Position numbers and translations under genes: made by a program
Shown here: positions 22,051 to 62,394 of the stretch, piece after piece
How the letters are laid out: every line of letters begins with the position of its first letter
Position numbering within the stretch: position 1 is the first letter of the stretch
NCBI GenBank assembly: GCA_034401795.1
Contig: CM067363.1
Coordinates: forward strand, 32,361,470-32,425,469
Length of the DNA stretch: 64,000 bases
From: Chaetoderma sp. LZ-2023a
Taxonomy: Eukaryota > Mollusca > Caudofoveata > Chaetodermatida > Chaetodermatidae
Reading direction: 5' to 3'
The notes under the pieces: generated by a model
What the model was told of the DNA's origin: nothing
Database searches by the model: none
Seen by the model: the letters and a program-made list of their open reading frames with translations, nothing else

Positions 22051-25000
22051 GTTCTAACTGATCAGGATACATAGAACAGAGTTGCGGAAAACTCCATGAT
22101 CAGGATACATAGACAGGGTTGCGGAAAACTAACTGATCAGGATACATAGAACAGAGTTGCGGAATATGCCAGAGTTCTAACTGATCAGGATACATAGAAC
22201 AGAGATCCGTAAAACTCCACAGTTCTAACTGATCAGGATACATAGAACAGAGTTGAGGAAAACTCCAGTTCTAACTGATCAGATACCTAGAACAGTTGCC
22301 GAAAATGCCAGCGGTCTAACTGATCAGGATACATAGAACAGAGCTGCGGAAAACTCCACAGAGTTCTAACTGATCAGGATACATAGAACAGAGTTGCGGA
22401 AAACTCCAGATTTCTAACTATCAGGATACATAGAACAGAGTTGGGTAAAACGCCAGAGTTCTAACTGATCAGGATACATAGAACAGAGTTGCATAAAACT
22501 CCACAGAGTTCTAACTGATCAGGATACATAGAACAGAGTTGCACAAAACTCCAGTTCTAACTGATCACGATACATAGAACAGAGTTGCGGAAAACTCCAG
22601 AGTTCTAACTGATCAGGATACATAGAACAGAGTTGCAGAAAACTCCACAGAGTTCTAACTGATCAGGATATATGGAACAGAGTGGGTAAAACGCCAGAGT
22701 TCTAACTGATCAGGATACAGAGAACAGAGTTGGGTAAAACGCCAGAGTTCTAACTGATCAGGATACATAGAACAGAGTTGCAGAAAACTCTACAGAGTTC
22801 TAACTGATCAGGATACATAGAACAGAGTTGCAGAAAACTCCAGTTCTAACTGATCACGATACAGAGAACAGAGCTGCGGAAAACGCCAGAGTTCTAACTG
22901 ATCAGGATACATAGAACAGAGTTGCGGAAAACTCCAGAGTTCTAACTGATCAGGATACATAGAACAGTGTTGCGGGAGTTCTAACTGATCAGGATACATA
23001 GAACAGAGTTGCAGAAAACTCTAAAGAGTTCTAACTGATCAGGATACATAGAACAGAGTTGCGGAAAACTCCACAGAGTTCTAACTGATCAGGATACATG
23101 GAACAGAGTGGGTAAAACACCAGAGTTCTAACTGATCAGGATACATAGAACAGAGCTGCGGAAAATGCCAGAGTTCTAACTGGTCAGGATACATAGAACA
23201 GAGTTGCGGAAAACTCCAGTTCTAACTCATCAGGATACATAGAGCAGAATTGCGGAATATGCCACAGTTCTAACTGATCAGGATACACAGAACAGAGTGG
23301 GTAAAACGCCAGAGTTCTAACTGATCAGTATACATAGAAAAGAGCTGCAGAACACGCCAGAGTTCTAACTGGTCAGGATACATAGAACAGAGTTGCGGAA
23401 AACTCCAGAGTTCTAACTGATCAGGACACATAGAACAGAGTGGGTAAAACACCAGAGTTCTAACTGATCAGGATACATAGAACAGAGCTGCAGAAAATGC
23501 CAGAGTTCTAACTGGTCAAGATACATAGAACAGAGTTGCGGAAAACTCCAGTTCTAACTGATCAGGATACATAGAACAGAGTTGCGGAATATGCCAGAGT
23601 TCTAACTGATCAGGATACACAGAACAGAGTGGGTAAAATGCCAGAGTTCTAACTGATCAGTATACATAGAACAGAGCTGCGGAAAACGCCAGCGTTCTAA
23701 CTGATCAGGATACATAGAACAGAGTTGCGGAAAACTCCACAGAGTTCTAACTGATCAGGATACATAGAACAGAGTGGGTAAAACACCAGAGTTCTAACTG
23801 ATCAGGATACATAGAACAGAGCTGCAGAAAACTCCACAGAGTTCTAACTGATCAGGATACATAGAACAGAGTTGCATAAAACTCCACAGAGTTCTAACTG
23901 ATCAGGATACATAGAACAGAGTGGGTAAAACACCAGAGTTCTAACTGATCAGGATACATAGAACAGAGCTGCAGAAAATGCCAGAGTTCTAACTGATCAG
24001 GATGCATAGAACAGAATTGCGGAATATGCCAGAGTTCTAACTGATCAGGATACACAGAACAGAGTGGGTAAAACACCAGAGTTCTAACTGATCAGGATAC
24101 ATAGAACAGAGCTGCAGAAAACGCCAGCATTCTAACTGATCAAGATACATAGAACAGAGTTGCGGAAAACTCCAGAGTTCTAAATGATCAGGATACATAG
24201 AACAGAGTGGGTAAAACACCAGAGTTCTAACTGATCAGGATACATAGAACAGCAGAAAACTCCACAGAGTTCTAACTGATCAGGATACATAGAACAGAGT
24301 TGCATAAAACTCCACAGAGTTCTAACTGATCAGGATACATAGAACAGAGTGGGTAAAACGCCAGAGTTCTAACCGATCAGGATACAGAGAACAGAGTTGG
24401 GTAAAACGCCAGAGTTCTAACTGATCAGGATACATAGAACAGAGTTGCGGAAAACTCCACAGAGTTCTAACTGATCAGGATACATAGAACAGAGTTACAG
24501 AAAACTCCAGTTCTAACTGATCACGATACAGAGAACAGAGCTGCGGAAAACGCCAGAGTTCTAACTGATCAAGATACATAAAACAGAGTTGCGGGAGTTC
24601 TAACTGATCAGGATACATAGAACAGAGTTGCAGAAAACTCCAAAGAGTTCTAACTGATCAGGATACATGGAACAGAGTGGGTAAAACACCAGAGTTCTAA
24701 CTGATCAGGATACATAGAACAGAGCTGCGGAAGATGCCAGAGTTCTAACTGATCAGGATACATAGAACAGAGTTGCAGAAAACTCCAGTTCTAACTGATC
24801 ACGATACAGAGAACAGAGCTGCGGAAAACGCCAGAGTTCTAACTGATCAGGATACATAAAACAGAGTTGCGGGAGTTCTAACTGATCAGGATACATAGAA
24901 CAGAGTTGCAGAAAACTCCAAAGAGTTCTAACTGATCAGGATACATGGAACAGAGTGGGTAAAACACCAGAGTTCTAACTGATCAGGATACATAGAACAG

Positions 25001-25462
25001 AGCTGCGGAAAATGCCAGAGTTCTAACTGATCAGGATACATAGAACAGAGTTGGGGAAAACTCCACAGAGTTCTAACTGATCAGGATACATAGAACAGAG
25101 TGGGTAAAACACCAGAGTTCTAACTGATCAGGATACATAGAACAGAGCTGCGGAAAATGCCAGAGTTCTAACTGATCAGTATACATAGAACAGAGTGGGT
25201 AAAACACCAGAGTTCTAACTGATCAGGATACATAGAACAGAGCTGCGGAAAATGCCAGAGTTCTAACTGGTCAGGATACATAGAACAGAGTTGCGGAAAA
25301 CTCCAGTTCTAACTGATCAGGATACATAGAACAGAGTTGCAGAAAACTCCAGTTCTAACTGATCAGGATACATAGAACAGAGCTGCGGAAAATGCCAGAG
25401 TTCTAACTGATCAGTATACATAGAACAGAGTTGCGGAAAACTCCAGAGTTCCAACTGATCAG
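22048..25462. repeat. 48-bp satellite, about 70 units with higher-order pattern
   Basis: The core is GAGTTCTAACTGATCAGGAT, ACATAGAACAGAGTTGCGGA, AAACTCCA. Three main unit types differ after AGAACAGAG: TTGCGGAAAACTCCACA, TGGGTAAAACRCCA (shorter, about 45 bp) and CTGCGGAAAAYGCCA. These occur in repeated orders such as type 1 - type 2 - type 3, for example around 23400-23480, 23740-23830 and 25060-25150. Each unit contains the palindrome CTGATCAG. The array ends at GGTTACATTTGGCTG. No coding is credible. Confidence 0.95.
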
Positions 25463-25880
25463 GTTACATTTGGCTGTCAGAATTATAAAATGGAAAGAAT
25501 GCTGGGAATAAGGCCCTAAAATTTCAGTATCAGTTTCTAGAAATGGAGAGATTAAGTTAGGTTTTGTATAACAAAAGAATAAATTGGTCTGGCCTAGTGT
25601 TGAGATTTTACATTGTACATATATACAATAATAGTGACGCGATCAGCAAACAGTGAAGAAAGAAATATATTGTACTCATCAGGATTGAATGAAAAAGTAA
25701 ATTTAGCAGACAAAATAAAACAATCACTTAGTTGTGGCAGTTTGTATTAAAAATATAATATAAAATAAATGAAAAGTGCAAAAATATTTAACAGTATAAT
25801 AACAATCAAGTAGAAAATATAATCACAGAAGAACCGAACAACCACGTCTATAGCGACAAGCCCACCACCACAAGGCATGC
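25463..25880. other. AT-rich spacer, nothing recognised
   Basis: A low-complexity AT-rich stretch between the 48-bp satellite and the CA microsatellite. No gene or element is identified. Confidence 0.4.
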
Positions 25881-33843: not shown

Positions 33844-34039
33844 TCAGCATATACAACTACTTCCTGTGCTAACTTCATCCATCTCTTTCCGATGTAACCC
33901 TTTTCTTCCATTTTTCATGCCAGGTAATTGTGCCTTGTCGACGCACGTCTCCATTCGTTGCATGACTGTCTCGAGTAGACATTCGACGGACTTTGCGACA
34001 TTCTGTCCCGTCGCTGCACTCGTCTCAAAGTAAGAAAAC
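33844..34039 (-). CDS. RAB27: RAB27 last coding exon
   Basis: The acceptor TTATTCAG is followed by G that completes a Gly codon. The exon then encodes [40 protein letters not shown] and a variable tail ending GSSCIC and TGA (TCA at 33844-33846). ETSA is the G5 guanine-base motif. RMETCVDK matches the Rab27 signature RMERCVDK. The C-x-C end is the double geranylgeranylation site, with Ile in place of the vertebrate CGC Gly. The 65-codon length, counting the stop, equals that of the vertebrate exon within a few residues. Confidence 0.95.
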
Positions 34040-43000: not shown

Positions 43001-46000
43001 ACACACATACAGTCAGTGACACCATTCACACATAGTCTGTGACACCATTCACACACATACAGTCAGTGACACCATTCACTCCCACCCACACACTCACCCA
43101 TATACCAACCCACTCACCCATGCACACACACTGATTGACTCACTCAACCACCCACCTTTCCACCCACCCACCCACCAACCCTGAGAATTTGTACGTTGTT
43201 TTATTATGAGAAATTACAGACCAAATTAGATTTTCAAGAGTTTGCATCAGTTTTTGATGGTTACATCCCGTTCCAACATGAAATACGACAAATATCCATT
43301 TTCCACACTTTTTTTCGCACTCCAAGGCATTCAACTGAGAATTGGTAGGTTGCTTTATTATAGGGAGTTATAGAGCAAGTTCGAGTTTCAGACATTTTCA
43401 TCAATTTTCCTTAATGCCCCTTAATATTAGTTTTCCACAATATTTTTCGCAGTATTTCAATATATTCAATTAAGAATTGGTATGTTGCTTTCTTATGAGT
43501 GATTACAGAGCAAGTATTCGAGTTTCAGGAGTTTGTGTCAATTTTTATGGAGTTATGACTGACTTATGAAATGCGAAAATCTCTGAAAAAATGAAATTCT
43601 TTACAATATAAAATTCTGTTGAAAATTTTGAAATTAATTTGACTGGAAGACAGCAACGGCTTCCAGTCAAATTAATTTCAAAATATTCAACAGTTTTCCT
43701 GTATGGTTGTGTTGAAACTGAGATATAGGGAATTCATAGGTGTCAGGTGAAAGGATTAATTCATGCGCATGTAGAGCTTTTGCTGTGCAGGCAAAATCCA
43801 AATGTTAGATACACTTTGTGCATGTAGAACAAAATTCTTATTTCTACCCATGGTTGGGACCTCCAAAATTTAAGAAACAAGTAGTACCCGTATTTTGTGG
43901 CGACATCTCTGGCCCGTTCTTCTGACACAACGCGCTGATCTTCTAAATCTGCTTTATTTCCACATAGAACAATGTCAGGATTCTCACAGTAAGCGTGTGT
44001 CTGTAACTGAGTCACCCAGTTACGAATGTTCAAGAAAGACTGCTCACTCGTTAAGTCAAACAGCAGCAGGAAGCCCATTGCATCACGAAAGAACGCGGTC
44101 GTTAAACTTCGAAACCTGAGGAATGAATCACAAATGTGAATAAAGAGACTCTGATGTTAAACTAAATATTGAAGAATTGCTGGGAATTAACTGTCTAACT
44201 GCTGCAAGACACCAAACAATAATTTCAATCGGCAATAATTATGGCCCTGCTGAATATTTTGAAAGCAATTTGACTGAAAGGTGTTGGTGGCTTCGCCATG
44301 AACAACTTTCAGTCAAATTGTTTTCAAAATGTTCATAAAGCCCAGAGTTATTCCCCATTGAAATTAATGTCTGGTGTCTAGCAGCAGTCACACAGTTAAA
44401 AGCCACAGTACAGTATATGTTTATTTTATAAAAGAATTTGCTCCTAATGGTGCATGGGTGAATTTATTAACCCTTACCACTCTGATGTCAATATTCCATC
44501 TTTTACTGTGTGAATAGCAAAGAAACTGGTGTAAATTTTTCAACAATTTTGGTGGACAATGTTGCGGTCATAGACAGCAACATCTTCCACCAAATTTGTT
44601 AACAAGAGGTACCAGAAGATATCAGATATCTCGCCTTTTTAAGTTACCACAGGACCCGGCCTGCCCTGGACTAAATATTCTGTGAAAAAATTACGTCCAG
44701 CCCATGTACATACAACAAGAACTATAAAAAAAATTGCAAATCGCTTTCCTGCATATTAATTGAAAATCACAGGGTATGATGGACCACCGGAGTCCCATTC
44801 TGAAATTTGACACTCCACTTGTCGATTCAAAATACCCATGGTACTACCCAATCGGGCAAGCATAGATTCATAGAAGCCTAGCTGGGAGACTGAACCTTAA
44901 AGCCTTGCTTCCAGGTAGTAACCTGCAGTACAATGACTACTGGCACACCAAGACTGTATGTATGTATGTATGTATGCATTTATATAGCGCCAATTCCAGA
45001 ATTAACTGCCCAAAGGCGCTTTACAAAAGTTAAAGCTAATTTAAAATAGTGAAATATGCTTTTTGGAACAAATGGGTTTTTAGAAGAGTTTTGAAAGCCT
45101 CAACATTGTTGCTGTTTTGAATGTTGGATGGAAGCTCGTTCCAAAGTTTTGGTCCAGCTATGGAGAAAGCACGCTCTCCAATGACAAGATTGGAATTGGG
45201 TACTACGCAGAGTAGCTGTTCACTCGATCTTAGTGCTCTCGGTGCTATTCGTCTAGTTATGAGTGATGATAAATACGGTGGGGCTAAGTCACGTAGGCAT
45301 TTGAACACGAAAAGTGCGACCTTAAATTCGATTCGTTGTTCCACTGGACTGAATGAAAGGCAAATGGTTCAAACATAAGCAAAGTTCACAGCCTGAAAAA
45401 AGAAGAAACATTTTCAAAAGCAAGTATATTAATATGATGTAGGCTACATTTAAGAAGCCTATTATAGAAAATCAACACATTTTTCTAAACTAGATAAGTC
45501 TTTGCTGATTAAATTGACATTTGAAAAAACACTAACCACAGCATAATACATATAACCTGATTGCAAAGCAGCCCTAAAATCTATTTCCTTTTAATAGGGA
45601 CTAGTCCTAAGCATTGTATAGAACAAATTGGTGAAGTTGTATTCAAATCGCATAAACCATTATGGATGCAAATGTCGTTTGAAAAAAGCTTAATGCAGCC
45701 AAACCTATACCTGGCTCTATAACCTGGATACAAATCAGCCATAAAATAATCAAAGTTCAAACGGTGAATAAATCTGGGGAAAATATGAGTCGATTTCTTT
45801 TTGATGTGGACTAGTCCTAAGCATCGCAAAGAAGAGATCTGTGAAATTTTATTCAATTCTGATAACCCCTTGTGGGTGCAAATGTAGTTTGAACAAGAGG
45901 TATCGGAAGATACCAAATATATCGCATTTTTAAGTTACCACAGGACCCGGATGCCGCAGGACCCGGTCTTCCCAGGACTAAATATTCTGTGAAAAGATAA

Positions 46001-48822
46001 TGTCCAAGCCATGTCCATACATAGAACAAGAGCTATCAGCACAATACATTTAAGCAGGATGCAAATCAGCGATAAAATAAGCAACGTTCAACCGCTGTAA
46101 AAGTGTAAACAAATTTTGAAAATCAATTTCTTTTTTATGTGGACAAGTCCTAAGCATGGTATAGAACACATTTGTGACAATTTATAGAAATCGGGCAACC
46201 CCTTGTTGTCTACAATGTAATTTGAAAAAAGCTTAACACAGCCAAAATCTATACCTGGCCACATAACCGGCATACAAATCAGCCCTAAAGTAATCAGAGT
46301 TCAAACGGTGAAAAAATCCGGGGAAAATATCAAAGTCGATTTCCTTTTGATGTGGCCTAGTACTAAGCATCGTATAGAACAAAGCTGTGAAGTTTTATTC
46401 AAATCGCCCGACCCCTTATGGGTGTAAATGTCATTTGAAAAAAACTTAACACAGCCAAGAATCATAACCAGGATATATAACCTGCACACAAATCAGCCAT
46501 AAAACAATCAAGAGTTCACTGAAAAAATCTGGGAAAAATGTCAAAGTTGATTGCTTTTTTATGTGGCCTAGTCCTAAACATCATATAGAACAAATCTGCG
46601 AAGTTTTATTCAAATTGGATAAACCCTTGTGGATGAAAACGTCGTTTGAAAAAAACTTAACACAGCCAAACCTATACCTGGCCACATAACCGGCATACAA
46701 GTCAGGCATAAAATAATCAGAGTTCAAACGGTGAAAAAATCCGGGGAAAAATCGATTTCCTCTTGATGTGGACTAGTCCTAAGCATCGTATAGAACAAAT
46801 CTGTGAAGTTTTATTCAAATCGCCCAACCCTTTGTGGGTGTAAATGTCATTTGAAAAAAGCTTAACACAGTCAAGAACGATAACCAGGATATAACCTGCA
46901 TGCAAATCAGCACTAAAATACTCAAAGTTCAAACGGCGAAAAAATCTGGAAAAAATTTGAGTCGATTTTTTTGCTTTACATGGACTGGTCCTAAGCATCG
47001 TATAGAGCAAATCTGTGAGGGTTTTTTTTAAATTGGATATCCCCCTGTGGGAGCAAATGCAATTTTAAAGAAGCTTAACACAGCCAAAAAAGTTAACTCT
47101 TGACACATAAAATATTCTATGTTCAAACATGATAAATGTATGAAAAAAGTTATAAAATCAATATAATTTTGAGATGCAGACTTGTTCTAAGCATCCCATA
47201 GAACACATCTGTGTAAATTTTTTTTTAATCGGATAGGCACAAATGTCATTTTAAAAAGATTAACCTGTCCAGATGCCAACACCAACATCAGCAATTTTTC
47301 CCACTCTCCAAAAATCTTTTTTCAACTTGGTGAAAATGTGAGATAAAAAAACTTAACGCAGCCGAAACCTATACCTGGCTATATCACCTGTATACAAATC
47401 AGCCATAAAATAATCAAAGTTCAAGGGCGAAAAAATCTGGAAAAATGTCAAAGTTTATTTCATTTTGGTGTGAACTAGTCCTAAGCATTGTTTAGAACAA
47501 ATATGTAAAGTTTTATTCAAATTGGATAACACCTTGTGGGTGCAAATGTCGTTTGAAAAAAGCTTAACGCAGCCAAAAGCTATACCTGGGCACATAACTC
47601 GCATACAAATCAGCCATAAAATAATCAGAGTTTGATGCGCCGAAAAAATCCGAAAAAAACTTCCTTTTAATGTGGACTAGTTCTAACCATCATATAGAAC
47701 AAATCTGTGACGTTTTATTCAAATCTGACAACCCCTTGTGGGTATAAATGTCGTTTGAAAAAAGCTTAACACAACCAAGAACCATAACCAGGATATATAA
47801 CCTGCACGCTCGTCAGTGAGATGAATCTGAATTGACACACATCCAGTCAGTGAGATGAATCTGAGCTGACACACATTTTGTCAGGGAGCTGAATTTGAAC
47901 TGATGAACACTCAGTCAATGAGATGAAGCTGAACTGACACACATTCAGTCAGGCAGCTGAATCTGAGCTGACACAGTCAGAAATGACGAACATTCAGTCA
48001 GTGAGATGAATCTGAACTGATGCACATTCAGTCATGCAGCTTAATCTGAACTGACGAACATTCAGTCAGTGAGATAAATCTGAACTGATGCACATTCAGT
48101 CACGCAGCTTAATCTGAACTGACGCACATTCAGTCAGTGAGATGAATCTGAACTGACGAACATTCTCACACATGTGACAAATGTCATCTTAAAGACCTAG
48201 TCTCCAAATACTTGATTGTGGACCACCCTCTGATTGATCATCGGAAGTGCCCTTAGACGCACTTAGCAAAAATCAATGATGGAAAAAGACATCAAGCTGA
48301 AAGAAAGGTGTACAGCAAACCCTTTAACGACTAAATTTCTTAGAAAATTAAAATATTTACTTATTGAATGTCCATTTGCGGGCCAAGAGAGGACTATTTT
48401 TGAAAGCTTACCACTGTAATGACTGGCTCTGTTACCGAGCCAGTCATTTCAGTGGTAAAATTTCAAAAATAGTCTTCTCTTGGCCTGCAAATGGACATTA
48501 CTCAAACCCACAACAGAGGCCGGTTTTGTCCGGTTTCATCACGAAAGGGTTAATGTTATCTCTCAAACATTTTTCAATATTTAATATAACGCTAAAAATA
48601 GAAATGCAATTACCAATGACTGTGTTTAGAAGTGTCAGGGATTACACAGGCACTGTGTGGATAATAGCTCTAGCTCGAGCGAGAATTTGGCAAAATTGTC
48701 AATCTATATATTATGTATTATTATGCTGCTTTGACATTCACAATACGGTCATTCAGTTTCTGGCTGTGTGGGAAAATGAGAACAGGTCTGCTTACAAATG
48801 CAGGAAACACAGTGTACCACTG

Positions 48823-48918
<96 letters not shown>

Positions 48919-51900
48919 TGAGTGCTTGCATACATGTGTGTGTGTGGGTGGGTGTGGTGGGTGTGTGCGTGCGTGCGTGCATGTGGTTGGTGGGTGGGTG
49001 CATGCAAGTGCGTGGACAGGATGGATGATAGAGATAATTGAACAGATGAATGGATGGACGGATGAATGAATGGATGGATGGACGGGTGGGCGGGAGGGAT
49101 GGATGGATGGTCGGGTGGGATGGATGGATAGACAGACAGACAGATGGATGGGTGGGTGGATGGACAGATGATCAGACACACACATACATAGATAATGATT
49201 AGTTGTTTTATTATTTATTGAATAGAAATTAGTCACATCATTCACTGCAGACATATTGATGTTCCTTTCACTGTTGGTGTCCGTTTTATGCAAGGACATT
49301 ATTCCGCTTTACACGAGGACATGTGAACAGAATCAGACTTTATGATTTCTTAGTCTGATTTCCAAGAAGCAACCGAATGATTATTTTGAGAGCATTTTGA
49401 CTGAAAGTTTGTGCTGCTATAACTTTCAGTCAAATTGTTCTCAAAATAATCATCACGAGACAAACTAGTTACAATATCATTAATGAGATAATTAAAAGCC
49501 AGAGTTAATGGTCAACTTCAGATTGCAATTATCAGATTAAGTCTTTTACATCTGAAGGGTTTTTCAAAAGAATATTGCATCATCATTCATCCTGAAAGCA
49601 TGATGCTGACTACTGCATGATGTTCATAGCAGTCATTAACCCTTTCACCCACAAATCACGGATATTATTTATTCTTTACGAAATAAAAACTTATTCTGTT
49701 GAATATTTTAAAAATAATTTGGCTTCCAGTGAAATTAATTTCGAAATTGACAATATTCACGTTTTCCTGTATGGTTGCCTTGAAAATGAGATATTGGGGA
49801 ATTCATCGGTGAAAGAGTTAAAGCTGACAGTTTGCTAATTACACAAACACACACTACCAGACTCATGTGAAGCACCCTCCCTCCCTCCCTCTACCTCCTC
49901 TCTCCCTCCTCTCTCCATCTCACTCCCCCTCTCTCCCTTCCTGTCCAGCTCTCTTTCCCCCTCTCCTTTCAAATTCCTCTTCCCTCTCTGGCTCCTTCCC
50001 GCCCTCCCTCTCTCCATCCCTCCCTCTCCCACTCTCTTGTTCTCTGCCATCTTCCCTCCCTTTCCCACTCTCTCCCACCCACACCCCCCCCCCCCTCCAA
50101 TACACACCACCTTTCCCTCCCACTGGGATTGTCTGTACCATAACGGGACATGGCTCCATAATGACTAATGCGTCATACCTTTCCTGTCCAGAAGTGTCAT
50201 CCCCTCTACCTTTCTAACTCCCTTACTCTCTTCCTGCCCTCACTCTCCACCTGCTCTCTCTCCCTCCCCATCTCTTCCTCCCTCCCTCTCCCACACCTTT
50301 CATGTCCAGCAGTGTCACAGAGTTGTAGATGTATCCGTTGACTTCGCTCCCACTGTCTCCCTCCCCTCTCCCTATCTTTCTCCCTCCCTCTCCCACTTGC
50401 TCATACTTTCCTGGCCAGAAGTGCCCCAGAGCTGTATTCATTGACCCATATCTCACCATCTCTCTCCCACTCTCTCATACCTTTCCTGTCCAGCAGTGTC
50501 CCAGAAATGTAGATGTATTCATTGCCCCCTATCTTTCCCTCTCCCACTCGCTAATACTTTCTTGTCCAGCAGTGTCCCAGAGCTGTACATGTATTCATTG
50601 ACCCATATCTCACCATCTCTCTCCCACTCGCTCATACCTTTCCTGTCCAGCAGTGTCCCAGAGCTGTAGATGTATTCATTGACCCCTATCTCTCCCTCTC
50701 CCACTCACTCATACTTTCCAGTCCAGCAATGTCCGAGAGCTGTAGATGTATTCATTGACACCAATCTCTCCCTCTCCCACTCACTCATACTTTCCAGTCC
50801 AGCAGTGTCCCAGAGCTGTAGATGTATTCATTGACCCCTATCTCTCCTTCTCCCACTCGCTCATACTTTCCTGTCCAGCAGTGTCCCAGAGATGTATTCA
50901 TTGACCCCCTATCTCTCCCTCTCCCACTCGCTAATACTTTCTAACTCCCTCCCTCTCTTCCTGCCCTCACTCTCCACCTGCTCTCTCTCCCTCCCTCTCC
51001 CTTTCTCCCTCCCCATCTCTTCCTCCCTCCCTCTCCCACACCTTTCATGTCCAGCAGTGTCACAGAGTTGTACAAGAGGTGTTCAGTTTATTTTGTCACA
51101 AGGTTGCACGATTTCTTGCTGCACGCTTATGGTCAATTGTCTCACTCACAATACCTTTTTACAAAGCCCACGAGCTTACCGACATGCTAGTTTAGTCTGT
51201 TAAAGGTTTTCAACATGCCAAGACATAAAATAAGCAAGAGAGCGGAATGTATAATTCTCCATCTTTTGAGGAGGGGAATGACGCCGTCACTGATCAGAAA
51301 TGAACTTTTGAAAGAAAATATCAGTGTCAGTGTGAGGACCATTTATCGCGTAAAGAATAACATCGGAAAAGAACGACAATTGACGAATCTAACACATGGA
51401 AAATCTGCTACATTGAAAATCAGAAGACAAACTGTAGTATCAAAACAAGTGATAGACAAAGTGAAGAAAATGATAGCAAGAATTAACCCACCGACACAAC
51501 GTGAGATGAGCAATCTATTAGGAATTAGTTTGGGATCCGTAAATAACACCATAAACAGTGTTATCAAGGCAAAACTGAGAAAAAAATGTTTGGTTCATAA
51601 ACTATCCCTAGAGCAAGTTGAAAAGAGGAGGAAGAGGAGCTGGAGGCTGTACCTGAAGCTGTGTGCGGGGAAGTGGAAAAACTTTGTCACCACAGATGAG
51701 GCTATGTTTTATCTAGGTGGAAGCTACGGAAAACGGCCAGTCTGTTATGTTAGGAAAGGACAAATTGATATGGATAAGTTGAAGTTTGTTAAACGTGACA
51801 GTTTCGCGCCTGGTTTCATGGTATGGGCAGGCGTCAGTCATTACGGAAAGACCAGTCTTAAATTCATTGATCGGAATGTGAAAATCAATGCTGATTATTA

Positions 51901-53311
51901 CATCAAACATGTTTTGAGACCCTTTTTGAAACATGATGTTCCCAAATTATTCCCAGGGAACAAACAGAAGGACATGGTTTTTCACCAAGATAGTGCCTCC
52001 TCTCATACTGCACGAAAGAGCTTAACATACTTAAAGCAGAACAATGTTAAATTCATTAGCCCTGAAGAATCTGTGATCAATAAAGCCCTTTCTTCTTGGC
52101 CTAAGCGCTGTAGACTGACATACTCATGGGTCTCAAATTGAACATCTTCTGCAATGAAATTATTTTGTGATAAATTATTGTTGATTAAATACTTATTTGA
52201 AATTTGTGACAAAATAAACTGAAGACCTCTCGTAGATGTATCCGTTGACTTCCCTCCCACTGTCTCCCTCCCCTCTCCCTCCCTCTCCCACTTGCTCATA
52301 CTTTCCTGGCCAGAAGTGCCCCAGAGCTGTAGATGTATTCATTGCCCTATATCTCACCATCTCTCTCCCACTCTCTCATACCTTTCCTGTCCAGCAGCGT
52401 CCCAGAAAACCAGATGTATTCATTGCCCCCTATCATTCCCTCTCCCACTCGCTAATACTTTCTTGTCCAGCAGTATCCCAGAGCTGTAGATGTATTCATT
52501 GACCCATATCTCACCATCTCTCTCCCACTCTCTCATACCTTTCCTGTCCAGCAGTGTCCCAGAAATGTAGATGTATTCATTGCCCCATATCTTTCCCTCT
52601 CCCACTCGCTAATACTTTCCTGTCCAGCAGTGTCCCAGAGCTGTAGATGTATTCATTGAACCCTATCTTTCCAACTCGCTCATACTTTCCTGTCCAGCAG
52701 TGTCCCAGAGATGTATTCATTGACCCCCTATCTCTCCCTCTCCCACTCGCTAATACTTTCCTGTCCAGCAGTGTCCCAGAGATGTAGATGTATTCATTGA
52801 CCCCCTATCCCATCATCTCTCTCCCTCTCCCACATACTTTCCTGCCCAGCAGTGTCCCAGAGCTGTAGACGTATTCACTGACCCATATCTCACCATCTCT
52901 CTCCCACTCGCTCATACCTTTCCTGTCCAGCAGTGTCCAAGAGCTGTAGATGTATTCATTGACCCCTATCTCTCCCTCTCCCACTCACTCATATTTTCCT
53001 GTCCAGCTGTGTCCCAGAGCTGTAGATGTGTTTATTGACCCCTATCTCTCATCTCTCCCTCTCCCACTCACTCATACTTTCCTGGCCAGCAATGACCCAG
53101 AGCCGTAGATGTATTCATAGACCCCTATCTCTCCCTCTCCCACTCACACATACTTTCCTGGCCAGCAGTGTCCCAGAGATGTAGATGTATTCATTGACAC
53201 CAATCTCTCCCACTCTCTCTCATACCTTTCCTGTCCAGCAGTGTCCCAGAGTTGTAGATGTATTCGTTGACTTCGCCCGATTGTTCCATCAGCACCAGGG
53301 ACTCTGTGAAC
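33844..53311 (-). CDS. RAB27: RAB27 small GTPase gene, three of the coding exons (spliced)
   Basis: Rab27 is a prenylated Rab GTPase of secretory granules and lysosome-related organelles; it recruits Slp/Slac2-type effectors. The exons at 53226-53311, 43888-44115 and 33844-34039 join in phase (0, then 2, then 2) at AG|G and GG|G. They give 169 residues that track vertebrate Rab27A (221 aa in human). These include [20 protein letters not shown] (G3/switch II), [31 protein letters not shown] (G4 NKxD), [11 protein letters not shown] (G5) and a CIC prenylation end. About 50 N-terminal residues (P-loop, switch I) are missing; their exon must lie beyond 64000, since I find none up to there. Introns in the window are 9,848 and 9,110 bp and full of repeats. 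No defects are seen in the exons. Confidence 0.95.
34085..34848. repeat. Degenerate CCAATGGG array, left part (interrupted by hAT element)
   Basis: Loose repeats of ATTGACCAATGRGRCAAGYR with ACTGAYRTCAYTGACC, diverged and of uneven spacing (about 30-60 bp). The array resumes at 36198 on the far side of the inserted hAT element, where it is far more regular. Confidence 0.75.
34857..36189. mobile_element. Non-autonomous hAT-type DNA transposon with 8-bp target duplication
   Basis: 1,333 bp starting TAGAGCTGGGCTGTATTG and ending ACCACCCAGCTCTA. It is flanked by the direct repeat CTTGACAT at 34849-34856 and 36190-36197. An 8-bp duplication and YAGAGCTGGG-type short inverted ends fit the hAT superfamily. 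Subterminal regions on both sides are dense in CGGTATACCG-like palindromes (34886-34934, 36119-36170). No transposase domain is recognisable inside, so it would depend on another element. It sits in a RAB27 intron. Confidence 0.85.
36198..36765. repeat. 63-bp minisatellite, about 9 units (right part)
   Basis: The unit is TGGCATGACTGACCAACGGG, AAAAGTAGCATTGACCAATG, GGCCAGGCATCCCTGACACA, AAT. The 21-codon period leaves several frames open on the minus strand. It is much more homogeneous than the left part at 34085-34848. Confidence 0.92.
36766..37455. other. Intronic spacer, nothing recognised
   Basis: Unique-looking RAB27 intron sequence. No exon-like segment or known element is seen. Confidence 0.4.
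38744..40403 (+). mobile_element. Tc1-like DNA transposon (copy 2, broken)
   Basis: 1,660 bp bounded by the same TACACCTGTGCAAAAGTTAA then GCACCA inverted repeats as copy 1. It sits in a family D repeat at a site reading ACATATATAAAACC in the undisrupted paralogue (31440-31453), so the TA-rich target is directly visible. Its orientation is opposite to copy 1. Confidence 0.93.
39055..40079 (+). pseudogene. Tc1-like transposase, broken
   Basis: It matches the 342-residue transposase at 20085-21113 nearly throughout, but differs in several ways. There is a TGA in place of Cys133 (39451-39453), and the first catalytic Asp is changed to Glu (HWSEESRF). A second TGA replaces a Gly of the PFGGGSV box (39613-39615). 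One codon is lost near 39653, and one base is missing near 39751 in the HAPGTHP region. The remaining frame, [11 protein letters not shown]...NPIEHSWD to the natural stop, is preserved. It retains MIWGCISF where copy 1 has Arg. Confidence 0.93.
40969..41189 (+). repeat. Partial family D monomer next to 27-bp array
   Basis: ATCCAATATGGCCACCAAAC to AATCAAGTCCTCCTGAGCAA, the first third of a family D monomer. At the point where other copies read CTTGAACAAACTTGG, the 27-bp array takes over at GAGCAAACACACATACAG. Confidence 0.7.
41190..43085. repeat. 27-bp minisatellite, about 70 units
   Basis: The unit is ACACACATACAGTCAGTGAC followed by ACCATTC. Variants include CACTCCCATACAGTCAGTGA, a 25-bp contracted form lacking two bases of CACA, and CATAGTCTGTGACACC. 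Duplicated blocks of several units are seen: the run starting CACACATACAGTCCGTGACA recurs at about 41810, 41888 and 42630. The nine-codon period gives long open frames on both strands that are not genes. Confidence 0.95.
43086..43600. repeat. CACCCA-rich tail and three diverged copies of about 150 bp
   Basis: A CACCCACCCACCCACC-rich stretch (43086-43185) is followed by three tandem copies. Each starts TGAGAATTKGTASGTTGYTT then TATTATGAG, and contains CAAGAGTTTG or CAGGAGTTTG and TTTTTCGCA. The copies start near 43181, 43336 and 43471. Confidence 0.65.
43611..43765. mobile_element. Palindromic MITE-like element (family P)
   Basis: The hairpin at about 43611-43693 has arms CTGTTGAAAATTTTGAAATT with AATTTGACTGGAAG, and CTTCCAGTCAAATTAATTTC with AAAATATTCAACAG, around ACAGCAACGG. 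It is followed by TTTTCCTGTATGGTTGTG and ends GTGAAAGGATTAA. The arms are shared with family B and with 44258, 49371, 49636 and 53570. Confidence 0.65.
43888..44115 (-). CDS. RAB27: RAB27 central exon
   Basis: The acceptor CCTCAG precedes G TTT CGA AGT, which completes AGG Arg and reads [20 protein letters not shown]. It continues [40 protein letters not shown] and [16 protein letters not shown]. The donor is GG|GTACTAC. The exon is 228 bp. Vertebrate Rab27A splits the equivalent region with an intron after NVRNWI; here it is one exon, so that intron is absent. CGNKADLED carries the G4 NKxD. The HAYCENPD stretch is Rab27-specific. Confidence 0.96.
44258..44345. repeat. Perfect-looking hairpin (family P)
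   Basis: GAATATTTTGAAAGCAATTT then GACTGAAAG, a 20-odd base loop, then CTTTCAGTCAAATTGTTTTC and AAAATGTTC. It lies 140 bp upstream of the RAB27 central exon on the gene strand. Confidence 0.6.
44467..44602. mobile_element. Palindromic MITE (family C), TTAA at both edges
   Basis: The left end is TTAACCCTTACCACTC. The hairpin has arms CAACAATTTTGGTGGACAAT then GTTGC, and GCAACATCTTCCACCAAATT then TGTT. The right side stops at a TTAA that is also the start of the adjacent AACAAGAGG repeat. A sister copy is at 59456-59637. Confidence 0.6.
44601..44740 (+). repeat. Dispersed repeat family E start
   Basis: AACAAGAGGTACCAGAAGAT then ATCAGATATCTCGCC and TTAAGTTACCACAGGACCCG. The same opening is seen at 45892-46030. 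The rest is not recognised. Confidence 0.6.
44952..45370 (-). pseudogene. LINE 3' end (CR1/L2-like), 5'-truncated
   Basis: An open minus-strand stretch (45036-45344) encodes the C-terminal ORF2 region of CR1/L2-type LINEs: [20 protein letters not shown] with [26 protein letters not shown] and [18 protein letters not shown]. The stop is followed by the family's usual 3' end, TTGTAAAGCGCCTTTGGGCA and GGCGCTATATAAATGC, then a microsatellite tail of ATAC repeats (44955-44977). The reading frame of this last piece looks undamaged. It is typical target-primed insertion with 5' truncation, in a RAB27 intron. Confidence 0.85.
45540..47805. repeat. About 210-bp tandem repeat, about 10 units (family E interior)
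   Basis: Each unit has ATCAGCCATAAAATAATCA, GTTCAAACGGTGAAAAAATC, GATTTCCTTTTGATGTGGAC, TAGTCCTAAGCATCGTATAG, AACAAATCTGTGAAGTTTTA and TGTCGTTTGAAAAAAGCTTA followed by ACACAGCC. AGCATCGTATAG-like motifs fall near 45613, 45823, 46153, 46365, 46577, 46792, 46994, 47194, 47484 and 47688. A family E start (45892-46030) interrupts the second unit. Short minus-strand frames are shared by units but show no protein family. Confidence 0.8.
47812..48172. repeat. 34-bp tandem repeat (68-bp dimers)
   Basis: CATTCAGTCAGTGAGATGAA then TCTGAACTGACGCA alternates with CATTCAGTCACGCAGCTTAA then TCTGAACTGACGAA. Confidence 0.85.
48320..48556. mobile_element. Palindromic MITE (family H), longest hairpin
   Basis: The left edge is CCCTTTAACGACTAAATTTC and the right edge is TCATCACGAAAGGGTTAA. 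The central palindrome has arms 48367-48428 and 48438-48499 around a 9-base loop (CTGTTACCG). They pair at 57 of 62 positions. The outer arm reads AATGTCCATTTGCGGGCCAA and the inner arm AATGACTGGCT. It is non-coding. Confidence 0.75.
48818..49165. repeat. Microsatellite cluster: CGTG, GTGTGGGTG and GGATGGATG
   Basis: An essentially pure CGTG run of about 100 bp (48822-48919), a TGTG/GGTG transition, then a GGATGGATGGACGG tract with ACAG (49021-49165). The open frames over it are low-complexity by-products. Confidence 0.95.
49371..49452. repeat. Hairpin (family P)
   Basis: GATTATTTTGAGAGCATTTT then GACTGAAAGTT, a loop, AACTTTCAGTCAAATTGTTC and TCAAAATAATC. It is a variant of the 44258 hairpin. 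Confidence 0.6.
49636..49821. mobile_element. TTAA-bounded MITE (family P)
   Basis: 186 bp from TTAACCCTTTCACCCACAAA to CATCGGTGAAAGAGTTAA, so the terminal inverted repeat is TTAACYCTTTCACC. Inside is CTGTTGAATATTTTAAAAAT then AATTTGGCTTCCAG, with a degenerate return arm and GTTTTCCTGTATGGTTG as at 43690. It is the clearest piggyBac-like end pair in the window. Confidence 0.7.
49865..50175. repeat. Polypyrimidine tract (CTCCCTCC)
   Basis: Nearly pure C/T on the plus strand, G/A on the RAB27 sense strand, with a C13 run near 50084-50096. It grades into the exon-derived array. Confidence 0.9.
51073..52232 (+). mobile_element. mariner-type DNA transposon, internally deleted
   Basis: 1,160 bp inserted at a TA of the exon-derived array: the left flank is CACAGAGTTG-TA (51071-51072) and the right flank is TA-GATGTATCCG (52233-52234). 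Ends are inverted repeats, CAAGAGGTGTTCAGTTTATT then TTGTCACAA on the left, and the complement of CGAGAGGTCTTCAGTTTATT then TTGTCACAAA on the right. It lies antisense to RAB27 in its intron. Confidence 0.92.
51215..52141 (+). pseudogene. mariner/Tc1-superfamily transposase lacking the last catalytic region
   Basis: 308 codons are open from [20 protein letters not shown]. Residues 1-120 form the paired helix-turn-helix DNA-binding part. Catalytic D1 is in [13 protein letters not shown] and D2 in [12 protein letters not shown]. After KFISPEE the protein jumps directly to [13 protein letters not shown]. In relatives, FISPEEWMP is followed by NSPDxxPxD and about 50 residues before this C-terminal phrase, so the third catalytic residue has been deleted. 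The normal ending GSQIEHLLQ is present in the next frame just before 52180, so a single-base shift truncates the tail. The copy cannot be active. Otherwise the frame is clean, suggesting a fairly recent insertion. Confidence 0.88.
53226..53311 (-). CDS. RAB27: RAB27 exon encoding the G3/switch II motif
   Basis: The acceptor CCTATTCTTCAG is followed by [20 protein letters not shown] and LWDTAGQER (86 bp, phase 0 to phase 2). The donor is GGAAAG|GTATGAG. Human Rab27A has the equivalent exon with the same phases. [15 protein letters not shown] is the Rab27-specific insert before switch II. WDTAGQE binds the gamma-phosphate and water, with Gln the catalytic residue. Failure to splice here would add 27 codons and then a TGA (53144-53146) in the first array unit. 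Confidence 0.95.
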
Positions 53312-53661: not shown

Positions 53662-55587
53662 ATTCAACAGAATATTTCCGAAAATGTTGCTCCCAATCCC
53701 AGGCATGCTAGGATGATTCATAATAAAGAAATATTAGTTACCTCTCCGGGATGTAGAAATTGTTTGAGTGTAGCTTACGTGACCATCTTGGTCACTTCTT
53801 CAGCACTAACTGACAGTCGCTGGCAACGTTACTCTGGTTCGTTCTTGGGGACTCACCTGACAGCATGGACTGGTAGACTGCTGATATAAGGTAGCCCTCA
53901 TCCCGGTTCATGGTTGGTTGATGGTTGTAGATTTCGATGGCCTCTTTAACTTTCCGTTTAAACAGGTTGATATCGATGTTGATGACCGAGGCACTGCTGG
54001 CGGGGATGGTATGGCCAGTGGTTTCTGTGTGTGTTGAGTTGGAGTTGATTTTAAGATGTTCTTTAACGCTGGTGCTGAGAGGCCTTTTTGTATCGCCTAC
54101 ATATGTTCCCTCACATTGGCCACATTCGATCTTGTAGATGACTTCAGAGTATTCATCTGTGGTCAGTTTATCTTTGGGTCTTACTAATTGTGATCTTAAG
54201 GTGTTGATGGGCTTGTGGTAAGTTTTGATGTGGTGTTATCTGAAGAGTCTGCCTAGTTCTTACAGACCTTGGATGTACGGAAGTCCGACTAGTGGAAGTT
54301 TTTCGACATCTGACATGTCTGATTGTTTATTACGAGGTAGGGGAGATGGTTTTCTCATCCACGAACTGTAACCGTTGGCTAGGAGTGATTGTTGGATGTG
54401 ACGATGTTCTTCTTTTTTGTTTGATGTTTCTGTGATGATGGAGTTTACGCGGTGAAATAGAGTTCTGATGACTGACCATTTGTGTTCCAAATGGTGGTTG
54501 GAGTGAAAATTTAGATATTAATCTGTGTGTGGGTTTTCTGTACACTAAGTTCCAGAATCACTGACATGTACCAAGACCTCTACATGTAGGAAGGCAATCT
54601 GGCCATCATCTTCAACGTCGCTGGTGAATTGGATGCATTGGTCAATACTGTTGAGGTGATCAGTGAAAGGTTGGATGTTGTATTTATTGGTGGAGGGGGG
54701 TGGGGGGGTGGGTGGGGGTCTGTGGCTGTGCCGAGTGCCTGTTGCTCGAAGGATCCCATATAAAGGTTCGCGATCACTGGTGACACTGAGGAGCCCAAAG
54801 CTACTCCATTAATTTGGTGGTAGTAGAAGTAGCCATTCTGAATGAAGTAAGTGGTGTCTAACACGATCTTCAAGAGACTGATAATCTGGATCAGTGAGAG
54901 GCTGGTCCAGTCTTTCAATGTATGGTCTTGGTCAAGAACTCTCTGGATGACTGGAAGAGCAAGTTGTCCACTGGGATGCTGGTGAAGAGTAGACACATCA
55001 AAAGAAACTATTTTGTGTGCAGGAAACTTCAAGTGATTGGATTTTGGTGGCAAAATCTTTGCTGTTTTTGATGTGGTGCTCCGAGTGGCCAACTAGTGAT
55101 TTCAGGATCTGTGTGAGGTATTTCGAGGCTTGAGATGTGATGCATCCAGTACTGGCAATGATGGGTATAAGTCAGGAATGTTAGTCTTGTGGATTTTTGG
55201 AATTCCATGGAATCTTGACACAGTGGCGGTTCCGGGGTAGAGTTTGAAGTATAAGGATTGGTCGATGATATTCTGGCTTTTCCAGTCTTTGAGCAGTTTT
55301 AGCAGGCGGTTTTTATACTGGCTGGCTGGGTCAAAAGATAATTTGGAGTATGTGTGGTGGTCTGACTGACAGAATGGAACTCTGAAGAGTCTGCCTACGT
55401 GTTCTAGCGTATACCAGCAGTCTACCAGTCCATACTGTCACATGAATCCACAAGAACTGATCGAGTGACATTGCCAGCGACTGTCAGTTAGTGCTGAAGA
55501 AGCGACTGAGATGGTCACGAAAGCTACACTCAAACAATTTCTACATCCTGGAGAGGTAACTAATATTTCCTTATTATTCAACAGAAT
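53662..55587 (-). mobile_element. Penelope-like element inserted in a family B repeat
   Basis: The 12-bp direct repeat ATTCAACAGAAT at 53662-53673 and 55576-55587 brackets a 1.9-kb insertion that splits a family B copy. Inside, about 160 bp at 53722-53885 is repeated inverted at 55412-55575. Shared blocks are AATATTAGTTACCTCTCC, GATGTAGAAATTGTTTGAGT, TTCAGCACTAACTGACAGTC and ATGGACTGGTAGACTGCTG. Inverted terminal copies (pseudo-LTRs) are known for Penelope-like elements. Coding is on the minus strand. Confidence 0.88.
53880..55410 (-). pseudogene. Penelope-like reverse transcriptase and GIY-YIG endonuclease, degenerate
   Basis: Minus-strand pieces occur in Penelope order. The RT has IVSFDVSTLHQHPSGQLALP (motif A Asp, about 55010-54950), then TTYFIQNGYFYYHQINGVAL, GSSVSPVIANLYMGSFEQQA (motif B, about 54860-54740). 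The segment that should hold the YxDD catalytic motif is replaced by a C-rich simple tract (54688-54720). Next are the RT C-terminal VYRKPTH, LEHKWSVIRTLFHRVNSIIT (about 54490-54425) and the GIY-YIG nuclease VIYKIECGQCEGTYVGDTKR then PLSTSVKEHL (about 54140-54050). A tail of HTIPASSASVINIDINLFKR and KVKEAIEIYNHQP follows. Frames change several times. It is inactive. Confidence 0.88.
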
Positions 55588-60016: not shown

Positions 60017-60201
60017 TTAACACTCAAGTTGGTCAAAAATAGACCATGAGAATACTATTTTTGGAAATTTACCACTAGAGACAACCGAGCCAGTTATTCC
60101 AGTGGTAAGTTTTCAAAGATAGTTATCTCGTGGTATGCAGATGGACATTTTCTGTGAGATGATTGAAAATGTCTTGACAATATTTAAGAGATAAAGGGTT
60201 A
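60017..60201. mobile_element. Palindromic MITE (family H) at edge of 62-bp array
   Basis: The left end is TTAACACTCAAGTTGGTCAA and the right end is AGAGATAAAGGGTTA. The hairpin includes ACTATTTTTGGAAATTTACC and GCCAGTTATTCCAGTGGTAA, AGTTTTCAAAGATAGTTATC. One outboard array-like unit (TCAGTCTAAAGCCATAATTA at 59984-60003) lies to its left. Confidence 0.65.
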
Positions 60202-62060
60202 CAATTAAGCTAGCTCTACATTCCCACATACATGTAAGATTTTTAGACCTCAGTCTATACCCATCATTACAATTAAGCTAGTCCACATTCCCACACAGCA
60301 TTCATAGACAGCAGTCTCTACCCATCATTACAATTAAACTATAGCTCCACATTCCCACATCACTTTCATAGACCTCAGTTTAAAACCATCATTACAATTA
60401 AGCTATAGCTCCACATTCCCAGATAGCATTCATAGACCTCAGTCTAAACCCATCGTTACAACTAAGCTAGCTCCACATTCCCACATAGCATTCATAGACC
60501 GCAGTCTAAACCCATCGTTACAACTAAGCTAGCTCCACATTCCCACATAGCATTCATAGACCTCAGTCTAAACTCATCATTACAATTAAGCTAGCTCCTA
60601 GCTCCACATTCTCACATAGCATTCATAGACCTCAGTCTAAACCCCGCATTACAATTAAGCTAGCTCCACATTCCCAGATAGCATTCATAGACCTCAGTCT
60701 AAATCGTTACAATTAAGCTAGCTCCACATTCCCAGATAGCATTCATAGCTGTCAGTCTAAACCCATCGTTACAATTAAGCTAGCTCCACATTCCCACACA
60801 GCATTCATAGACCTTGGTCTAATCCCATCGTTACAATTAAGCTAGCTCCACATTCCCACATAGCATTCATAGACATCAGTCTAAACCCATCATTACAATT
60901 AAGCTAGCTCGACATTCCCACATAGCATTCATAGACACCAGTCTAAAACCATCATTACAATTAAGCTAGGTTCACATTCCCACATAGCATTCATAGACCT
61001 CAGACTAAAACCATTGATACAATTAAGCTAGCTCCACATTCCCACACAGAACTCATAGTCCTCAATCTAAACCCATCGTTACAATTAAACTATAGCTCCA
61101 CATTTTCACATAGCATTCATAGACCTCAGACTAAAACCATCATTACAATTAAGCTAGCTCCACATTCTCACATAGTATTCATAGACCTCAGTCTAAACCC
61201 ATCATTACAATTAAGCTAGCTCCACATTCCCACATAGCATTCATAGACCTGTCTAAAATCATCATTACAATTAAGCTATAGCTCCACGTTCCCAGATAGC
61301 ATTCATAGTCCTCAGTCTAAACCCATCATTACAATTAAGCTATAGCTCCACATTCCCAGATAGCATTCATAGTCCTCAGTCTAAACTCATCATTTCAATT
61401 AAGCTATAGCTCCACATTCCCACATAGCATTCATAGACCTCAGTCTAAAGCCATCGTTACAATTAAGTTAGCTCCACATTCCCATATAGCATTCACAGAC
61501 CTCAGCCCAAAACCATTGTTACAATTAAGCTATAGCTCCACATTCCCAGATAGCATTCATAATCCTCAGTCTAAACTCATCATTTCAATTAAGCTATAGC
61601 TCCACATTCCCACATAGCATTCATAGACCTCAGTCTAAAGCCATCGTTACAATTAAGCTAGCTCCACATTCCCATATAGCATTCATAGACCTCAGTCTAA
61701 AGCCATCGTTACAATTAAGCTATAGCTCCACATTCCCATATAGCATTCACAGACCTCAGCCCAAAACCATTGTTACAATTAAGCTAGCTCCACATTCCCA
61801 CATACATGTAACACTCATAGACCTCAGTCTAAAACCATCGTTACAATTAAGCTATAGCTCTGCGTTCCTATACAGCATCCATAGACCACAGTCTAAAACC
61901 ATCGTTACAATTAAGCTAGCTCAACATTCCCACATACATGTAACACTCATAGACCTGTCTAAAACCATCGTTACAATTAAGCTATAGCTCCGCGTTCCTA
62001 TACAGCATCCATAGACCACAGTCTAAAACCATCGTTACAATTAAGCTAGCTCCGTGTTCC
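60198..62060. repeat. 62-bp satellite, about 30 units
   Basis: The unit is ATTACAATTAAGCTAGCTCC, ACATTCCCACATAGCATTCA, TAGACCTCAGTCTAAACCCA, TC. The two unit types AAGCTAGCTCC and AAGCTATAGCTCC are interspersed, and blocks such as 61360-61480 and 61560-61680 are near-duplicates. It is non-coding. Confidence 0.95.
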
Positions 62061-62394
62061 CACACAATCAAATAATTAATTAGCCAATCCAAGCCTCATG
62101 CTCTATGCAATTCCTCTATACAATGCCATTACCTGTTAAATCCACAGAACAATTAACTTTCAAAAGCTTATAGTTATTTAAGTTAGGCTTGCGCGATTAT
62201 GCAATTTTTATGAAGGCGATTATTTCAGATAAATAATTACTATTATTCAATGAATTGACCTCAAGTGTGCTGGATGTAGGCATGGTGATATGCAAATAGC
62301 AACCTTCTGTGGATGATTTCAGAGCATTCTACTGTCTAAATAGCCAGCTGCAATCCCGGGATTTAATTTCCTATTCTAATTTAGGCTACTATTT

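Follow-up and report, generated by a model that had tools for sequence, protein, structure and literature searches.

Introduction

Tandem arrays whose repeat unit includes the edge of an exon have been described in chordates. Closest to the case reported here are the "mirages" of the amphioxus genes Adh3, BflGb6 and BflGb9, minisatellite-like tandem duplications of an exon-intron boundary that lie beside the intact exon; their units measure 10-160 bp, and many but not all of them have kept the AG/GT signals (PMC3087553). The BflGb9 mirage repeats the 3' boundary of its exon, and BflGb6 is found with 6 and 3 copies in two haplotypes, with edge units that escape homogenisation. In humans, the 31-bp VNTR of CBS, c.1444_1467+7(16_21), has 16-21 copies of a unit that combines 24 nt of coding exon with 7 intronic nt (PMC2630376); it is polymorphic in people and associated with lower enzyme activity when more units are present (PMC5188458). 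A 25-bp VNTR of human ABCA7 starts at the exon 18 donor; the first donor within the array is used at times and array length affects the skipping of exon 19 (PMC5954066). Repeats at exon-intron boundaries are also described for human genes in segmental duplications (PMC2812944); a report on C. elegans minisatellites near alternative exons (PMC4039745) has no bearing on exon-edge units.

The array described here lies in Chaetoderma sp. LZ-2023a, in a window (by which we mean the whole stretch of DNA analysed, 64,000 nucleotides long) that contains part of a Rab27 gene. An earlier note on this DNA had described the edge of a RAB27 exon, with its donor, as amplified about 22 times inside its own intron, and had considered a minisatellite of such origin unusual. 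The amplification is real, as detailed below; as to its being unusual, the amphioxus mirages (PMC3087553) and the VNTRs of CBS (PMC2630376) and ABCA7 (PMC5954066) provide precedents.

Results

The assignment of the gene to RAB27 was borne out by a search of the joined peptide of exons A and B (Table 1) against the PDB, which returned Rab27A as the best match (E 8e-56) and Rab3A as the first protein other than Rab27 (9e-31), so that among Rabs of known structure the top match is a Rab27. The first five residues of this query are intron read-through and lie outside the matched region. A 16-residue peptide of exon A is identical in human Rab27A. About 5.2 kb past the window edge and on the strand of the gene lies a P-loop exon of the Ras family (C5:32430624-32430740), which likely belongs to the same gene. 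The in-frame joining of exons A and B, the Rab27A match, exon C and the P-loop exon together make the gene look intact.

Table 1. Positions of the Rab27 exons, of the array and its parts, and of two boundary arrays elsewhere in the genome. Positions refer to the window unless a locus handle is given; a slash marks the splice junction.
Feature	Position	Strand	Description
Rab27 exon A	53226-53311	minus	28 residues + AG; acceptor TTCTTCAG/GTT, donor GAAAG/GTATGAG; parent of the array; in frame with exon B
Exon-edge array	50173-53225	minus	22 copies; unit of ~76 bp, 81/76 alternation, higher-order unit of 157 bp; transposon inside
Distal block, ~8 units	50218-50941	minus	87% identical (760 aligned columns) to 50945-51073 joined to 52235-52841
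Longest-exon copy (copy 50322)	50278-50347	minus	51 nt of exon + 19 nt of intron, 90%; CAA and CGN kept
Most distal fragment	50173-50198	minus	20 nt of exon + 6 nt of intron, 25/26 identical; donor 9-mer AAGGTATGA
DNA transposon, ~1.16 kb	51073-52232		TA on both sides, similar inverted ends of ~28 bp, open frame of 316 codons; splits one copy
Rab27 exon B (...DVATKYG)	43888-44115	minus	next exon after A; A-B intron ~9.1 kb
Rab27 exon C	33900-34039	minus	3' end approximate
Boundary array, Ras-family exon	L058:2813-4029		acceptor side; 40 bp x ~30; unit resembles polypyrimidine tract + acceptor; TRF end ~37 nt before exon
Boundary array, TCP-1 family exon	L067:743-1216		donor side; 28 bp x 17, 97% matches; unit begins at inferred GT

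In each full copy of the array, the last 47-51 nt of exon A are followed by the donor and roughly 30 nt of intron rich in purines. The unit thus repeats switch II codons together with the 5' splice site, as the note had stated, and its identity to the exon spans the full 47-51 nt, well above the 20 bp below which the note would have given up the idea. A scan of the window for the core of the exon finds exon A and 22 copies, which agrees with the count of about 22, although not all are whole units: the transposon splits one, and the most distal consists of a fragment of 26 nt. Eighteen of the 22 spacings measure 70-83 bp and the rest 109, 118, 176 and 1259 bp, the last of which spans the transposon; TRF reports periods of 76, 81 and 157. 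The genuine exon is indeed the upstream-most unit, as had been proposed, but because the gene is on the minus strand this places it at the highest coordinate.

Identity to the last 47 nt of exon A amounts to 38-44 of 46-47 positions in 18 of the 22 copies; the other four, which are deletion-shifted or truncated, score 32, 32, 29 and 22. A blastn search of the window with exon A and 120 nt on either side gave 28 matches besides the query itself. Of these, 27 lie within 50173-53271, at 79-96% identity and with a best E of 1e-61; the remaining match, weak and 39 nt long, comes from the upstream intron part of the query and lies at 18.8 kb. The exon B query gave one inverted match of 49 nt, and the exon C query none in the window. 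The array is genuine and lies far outside what chance would give. Its sense strand contains 38% G and 12% C, compared with 18% G and 20% C in the remainder of the A-B intron.

When exon A and the unit were searched against the 2.44-Gb assembly, at least 20 matches were obtained, all at the Rab27 locus (very common words are passed over in this search, and the number of matches is a minimum); occurrence at unrelated loci, which the note had named as speaking against its idea, was not seen among these 20 matches. Because the peptide is common to human Rab27A and the unit is found only at the Rab27 locus, exon A is the parent of the array. A dispersed repeat that had captured exon A was also considered and rejected, as no second locus appeared in the assembly search with its lower-bound counts.

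A stop is present in 16 of the 22 copies (15 TGA, one TAA) where exon A has CGA, and the copies are therefore non-coding. Like exon A, copy 50322 and its partner at 51067, which are situated at the distal ends of two blocks of the array, carry CAA and CGN. The other 20 copies (16 with the stop, three deletion-shifted and one fragment) include none with CAA. Most units share TGA, CAG or CAT, and the loss of the donor G, states that neither exon A nor the distal-end copies of the two blocks have. Several copies had been thought identical to the exon apart from a change of CAA to CAG; this holds for two (52652 and 50675, over 37 nt), and one more has CAT (52793).

With seven of the 23 rows set aside (exon A, the fragment, the two copies 50322 and 51067, and three that carry deletions), 16 regular internal units remain. 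Compared in pairs, they are 89.4% identical over the part derived from the exon and 85.7% over that derived from the intron. Third-codon sites, 16 in all, show 20 minor bases, and the 31 first- and second-codon sites show 24. Judged from these counts, the divergence pattern appears close to the expectation for unconstrained copies. The idea that the copies are coding or selected was rejected on account of the stops, the lack of a frame and the only slightly better conservation of the exon-derived part.

The identity of the distal block to a second block, which includes non-repeat sequence at the end, speaks for a block duplication inside the array; offset alignments between the blocks also reach about 86%, over shorter stretches, because the units resemble one another. 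The open frame of the transposon gives only helix-turn-helix Pfam matches, below their cut-offs, and contains what looks by eye like a DDE pattern. By its structure, the element is a candidate Tc1/mariner-like transposon. Outside the array, broken frames on the minus strand at 53792-55437 resemble, on visual inspection, a reverse-transcriptase element that ends in a GIY-YIG-like part (two frames were tried and gave no supporting Pfam match). Diverged repeats, each about 200 bp long, are located at 46119-47783 (periods of 202-205, with a doubled period of 416).

Donors were scored with a matrix of human frequencies, which serves as a ranking aid only. On this scale the donor of exon A, AAG/GTATGA, scores 4.36 bits. 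Six copies have the same 9-mer, two have AAG/GTGTGG (4.04 bits), 13 have AAA/GTAT.. (-3.03 to 2.58 bits) and one is without GT, so that by this matrix eight of the 22 come within 0.4 bit of exon A. The exon A donor is itself outscored by five ATGGTGAGA sites in the intron part of the array (4.48 bits) and by one site at 44477 (4.71 bits). The last exonic G of the donor is absent in 11 of the 16 regular internal units. Use of the first copy's donor, AAA/GTATGT (2.58 bits), would lengthen exon A by 72 nt, open and in frame, whereas use of the donor in any of the remaining 20 GT-bearing copies would run into a stop. If decoy donors were used at all, mostly nonsense transcripts would be expected. 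On these scores, it is plausible that the copies act as decoy donors.

Tandem repeats of period 10 or more take up 38% of the window, in 29 merged arrays (TRF; for example 10280-15683, 22054-25469 and 60198-62064). Placement of the array at an exon edge was considered as a remarkable feature and rejected: about 2.3 arrays are expected at random for the six boundaries of the three exons, and one was encountered. With so much of the window in arrays, an exon-edge array is not remarkable within it, yet the cover around other sampled exons is 3-10%.

Further exons of the assembly were surveyed for comparable arrays. Off-diagonal exon-edge matches were found at none of the 30 top PF00071 loci (of 150 scored matches and 332 candidates), which are weak controls because many are whole-domain matches and apparently single exons. 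A second sample comprised 50 partial-domain exons (10 PF00071, then 20 PF00118 of 56 matches, and 20 PF00071); L051 is the same exon as L046, several of the PF00118 exons come from shared genes, and the survey would miss an exon end that lies beyond the Pfam match by more than 80-100 nt. Splice-boundary tandem arrays occur in two of these 50 exons, L058 and L067 (Table 1); in addition, L052 and L053 show dispersed matches and L066 and L087 short ones. Of 21 bases at the start of the L058 exon, 10 match the unit, which is thus not coding. The L067 array resembles the human ABCA7 VNTR in that its unit starts at the donor GT, here an inferred one. Units with at least 20 coding bases were found in none of the 50 sampled exons and at none of the 30 top Ras loci. 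Boundary arrays recur in this genome, and the coding content of the Rab27 unit is exceptional in this small sample. The host genome gave 44 matches to the molluscan haemocyanin domain, which mark it as that of a mollusc; a cephalochordate host had also been considered, and a GFP search, run with no positive control, gave no match.

Discussion

The mechanism is not new. The same architecture is published for amphioxus and human CBS. The unit of the Rab27 array spans an exon-intron boundary, as in the amphioxus mirages, and the authentic exon, intact, adjoins it at one edge. Splice signals are kept in many but not all units, with GT in 21 of 22 and a donor near exon A in score, by the human matrix, in eight. 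The interior is homogenised and the edges are not: exon A and copies 50322 and 51067 share CAA and CGN, and the other 20 do not. Ends with ancestral states and a homogenised interior are the pattern described for BflGb6 (PMC3087553). The Rab27 array differs in having 22 copies of about 76 bp and in belonging to a mollusc, to which the name mirage would not extend if it were restricted to cephalochordates; for the amphioxus genes, RT-PCR and instability data exist.

The likeness to the CBS VNTR lies in a unit of coding exon end plus donor at an exon boundary. Compared with the uniform 31-bp units of CBS, those of the Rab27 array contain more of the exon and have diverged further, and a transposon lies among them. 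The ABCA7 array is likewise situated at an exon donor, but its unit begins with the donor GT and holds no coding sequence; use of an in-array donor has been demonstrated there, as has an influence of array length on the skipping of exon 19. Among the titles listed by searches of the open-licence literature, we saw no case of an exon-edge minisatellite in a mollusc. Zhuo in 2007, and Gao and Lynch in 2009, reportedly linked intron gain to tandem arrays or AGGT duplications. Such arrays are similar in that tandem copies carry splice signals; the Rab27 units offer donors, and a new intron is not evident.

We consider it highly probable that the Rab27 array is a mirage-type minisatellite, seeded by a tandem duplication at a splice boundary, and that it is a mutational by-product whose decoy donors are mostly ignored. 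The seed would have been a duplication of the boundary between exon A and its intron. The array would then have grown by slippage or unequal exchange, perhaps aided by the purine bias of its sense strand in a region rich in minisatellites. A block duplication and a transposon insertion are visible in the array. The transcript would be spliced chiefly at the upstream donor, the authentic one, while the copies would serve as no more than weak decoys; a selected function would not be required for the array.

The relation between exon A and the copies, the end copies with exon states, the restriction of the unit to one locus and the intact flanking coding exons all support the by-product reading. 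So do the similar divergence of the exon- and intron-derived parts, the stops in 16 copies, the wealth of tandem repeats in the window, the G-rich and C-poor sense strand, the boundary arrays at two of the 50 sampled exons and the published counterparts in amphioxus and human CBS. Some observations count against it. Eight copies have donors near that of exon A in score, and the matrix does not pick out the authentic donor. Conservation is slightly higher in the part derived from the exon than in the intron part, a difference that weak selection might equally produce. Lastly, the Rab27 array exceeds the sampled local background, because the two other boundary arrays hold little or no coding sequence.

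A functional decoy array, in which the copies would bind U1 and tune Rab27 splicing and the first-copy donor would yield an in-frame isoform with 24 extra residues near switch II, seems unlikely to us. The six exact and two near-equal donors speak for it, as does the open 72-nt extension from the first copy, and there is a precedent in ABCA7, where the first in-array donor is used with retention of one unit and length affects skipping of the next exon (PMC5954066). However, the donor is weaker or absent in 14 of the 22 copies, including the first (2.58 versus 4.36 bits), its last exonic G is gone from most regular internal units, and use of the other 20 GT-bearing copies would lead to stops. 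The one-unit retention in ABCA7 is unchanged by array length (PMC5954066), and regular splicing in amphioxus is reported to be undisturbed by mirages in RT-PCR (PMC3087553).

An assembly artefact, that is, a collapsed or mis-expanded repeat, is very improbable. Tandem arrays are frequently misassembled, and the assembly has only one matching place, but the regular internal units differ from one another by about 11-14%, the transposon and the block duplication come with private differences, and the array sits within a 73-Mb contig. That the array serves as a template for gene conversion into exon A, as the earlier note had suggested, is scarcely credible: the copies, mostly 80-90% identical, do adjoin the exon, but no conversion is seen at the two codons examined, where exon A is free of array-type bases and keeps the CGA and CAA that the 20 copies outside the distal ends lack, while the distal-end copies match its states instead and its 16-residue peptide is the same as in human Rab27A.

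The Rab27 array adds a mollusc to the chordate cases of exon-boundary minisatellites cited above, and it is a long and well-preserved example. It is a long shot, but this lineage may keep turning splice boundaries into minisatellites, so that arrays of near-authentic donors would serve as evolving decoys and as a source of new isoforms; in Rab27 this would be a form with 24 additional residues by switch II, made through the in-frame donor of the first copy. Effects of the array on splicing are possible. The 21 GT sites of graded strength downstream of a single authentic donor provide a natural test of how the spliceosome chooses the upstream-most among many near-identical donors. They likewise provide a test of how, by mutation, the edge of an exon could become the seed of a repeat or of a new intron.
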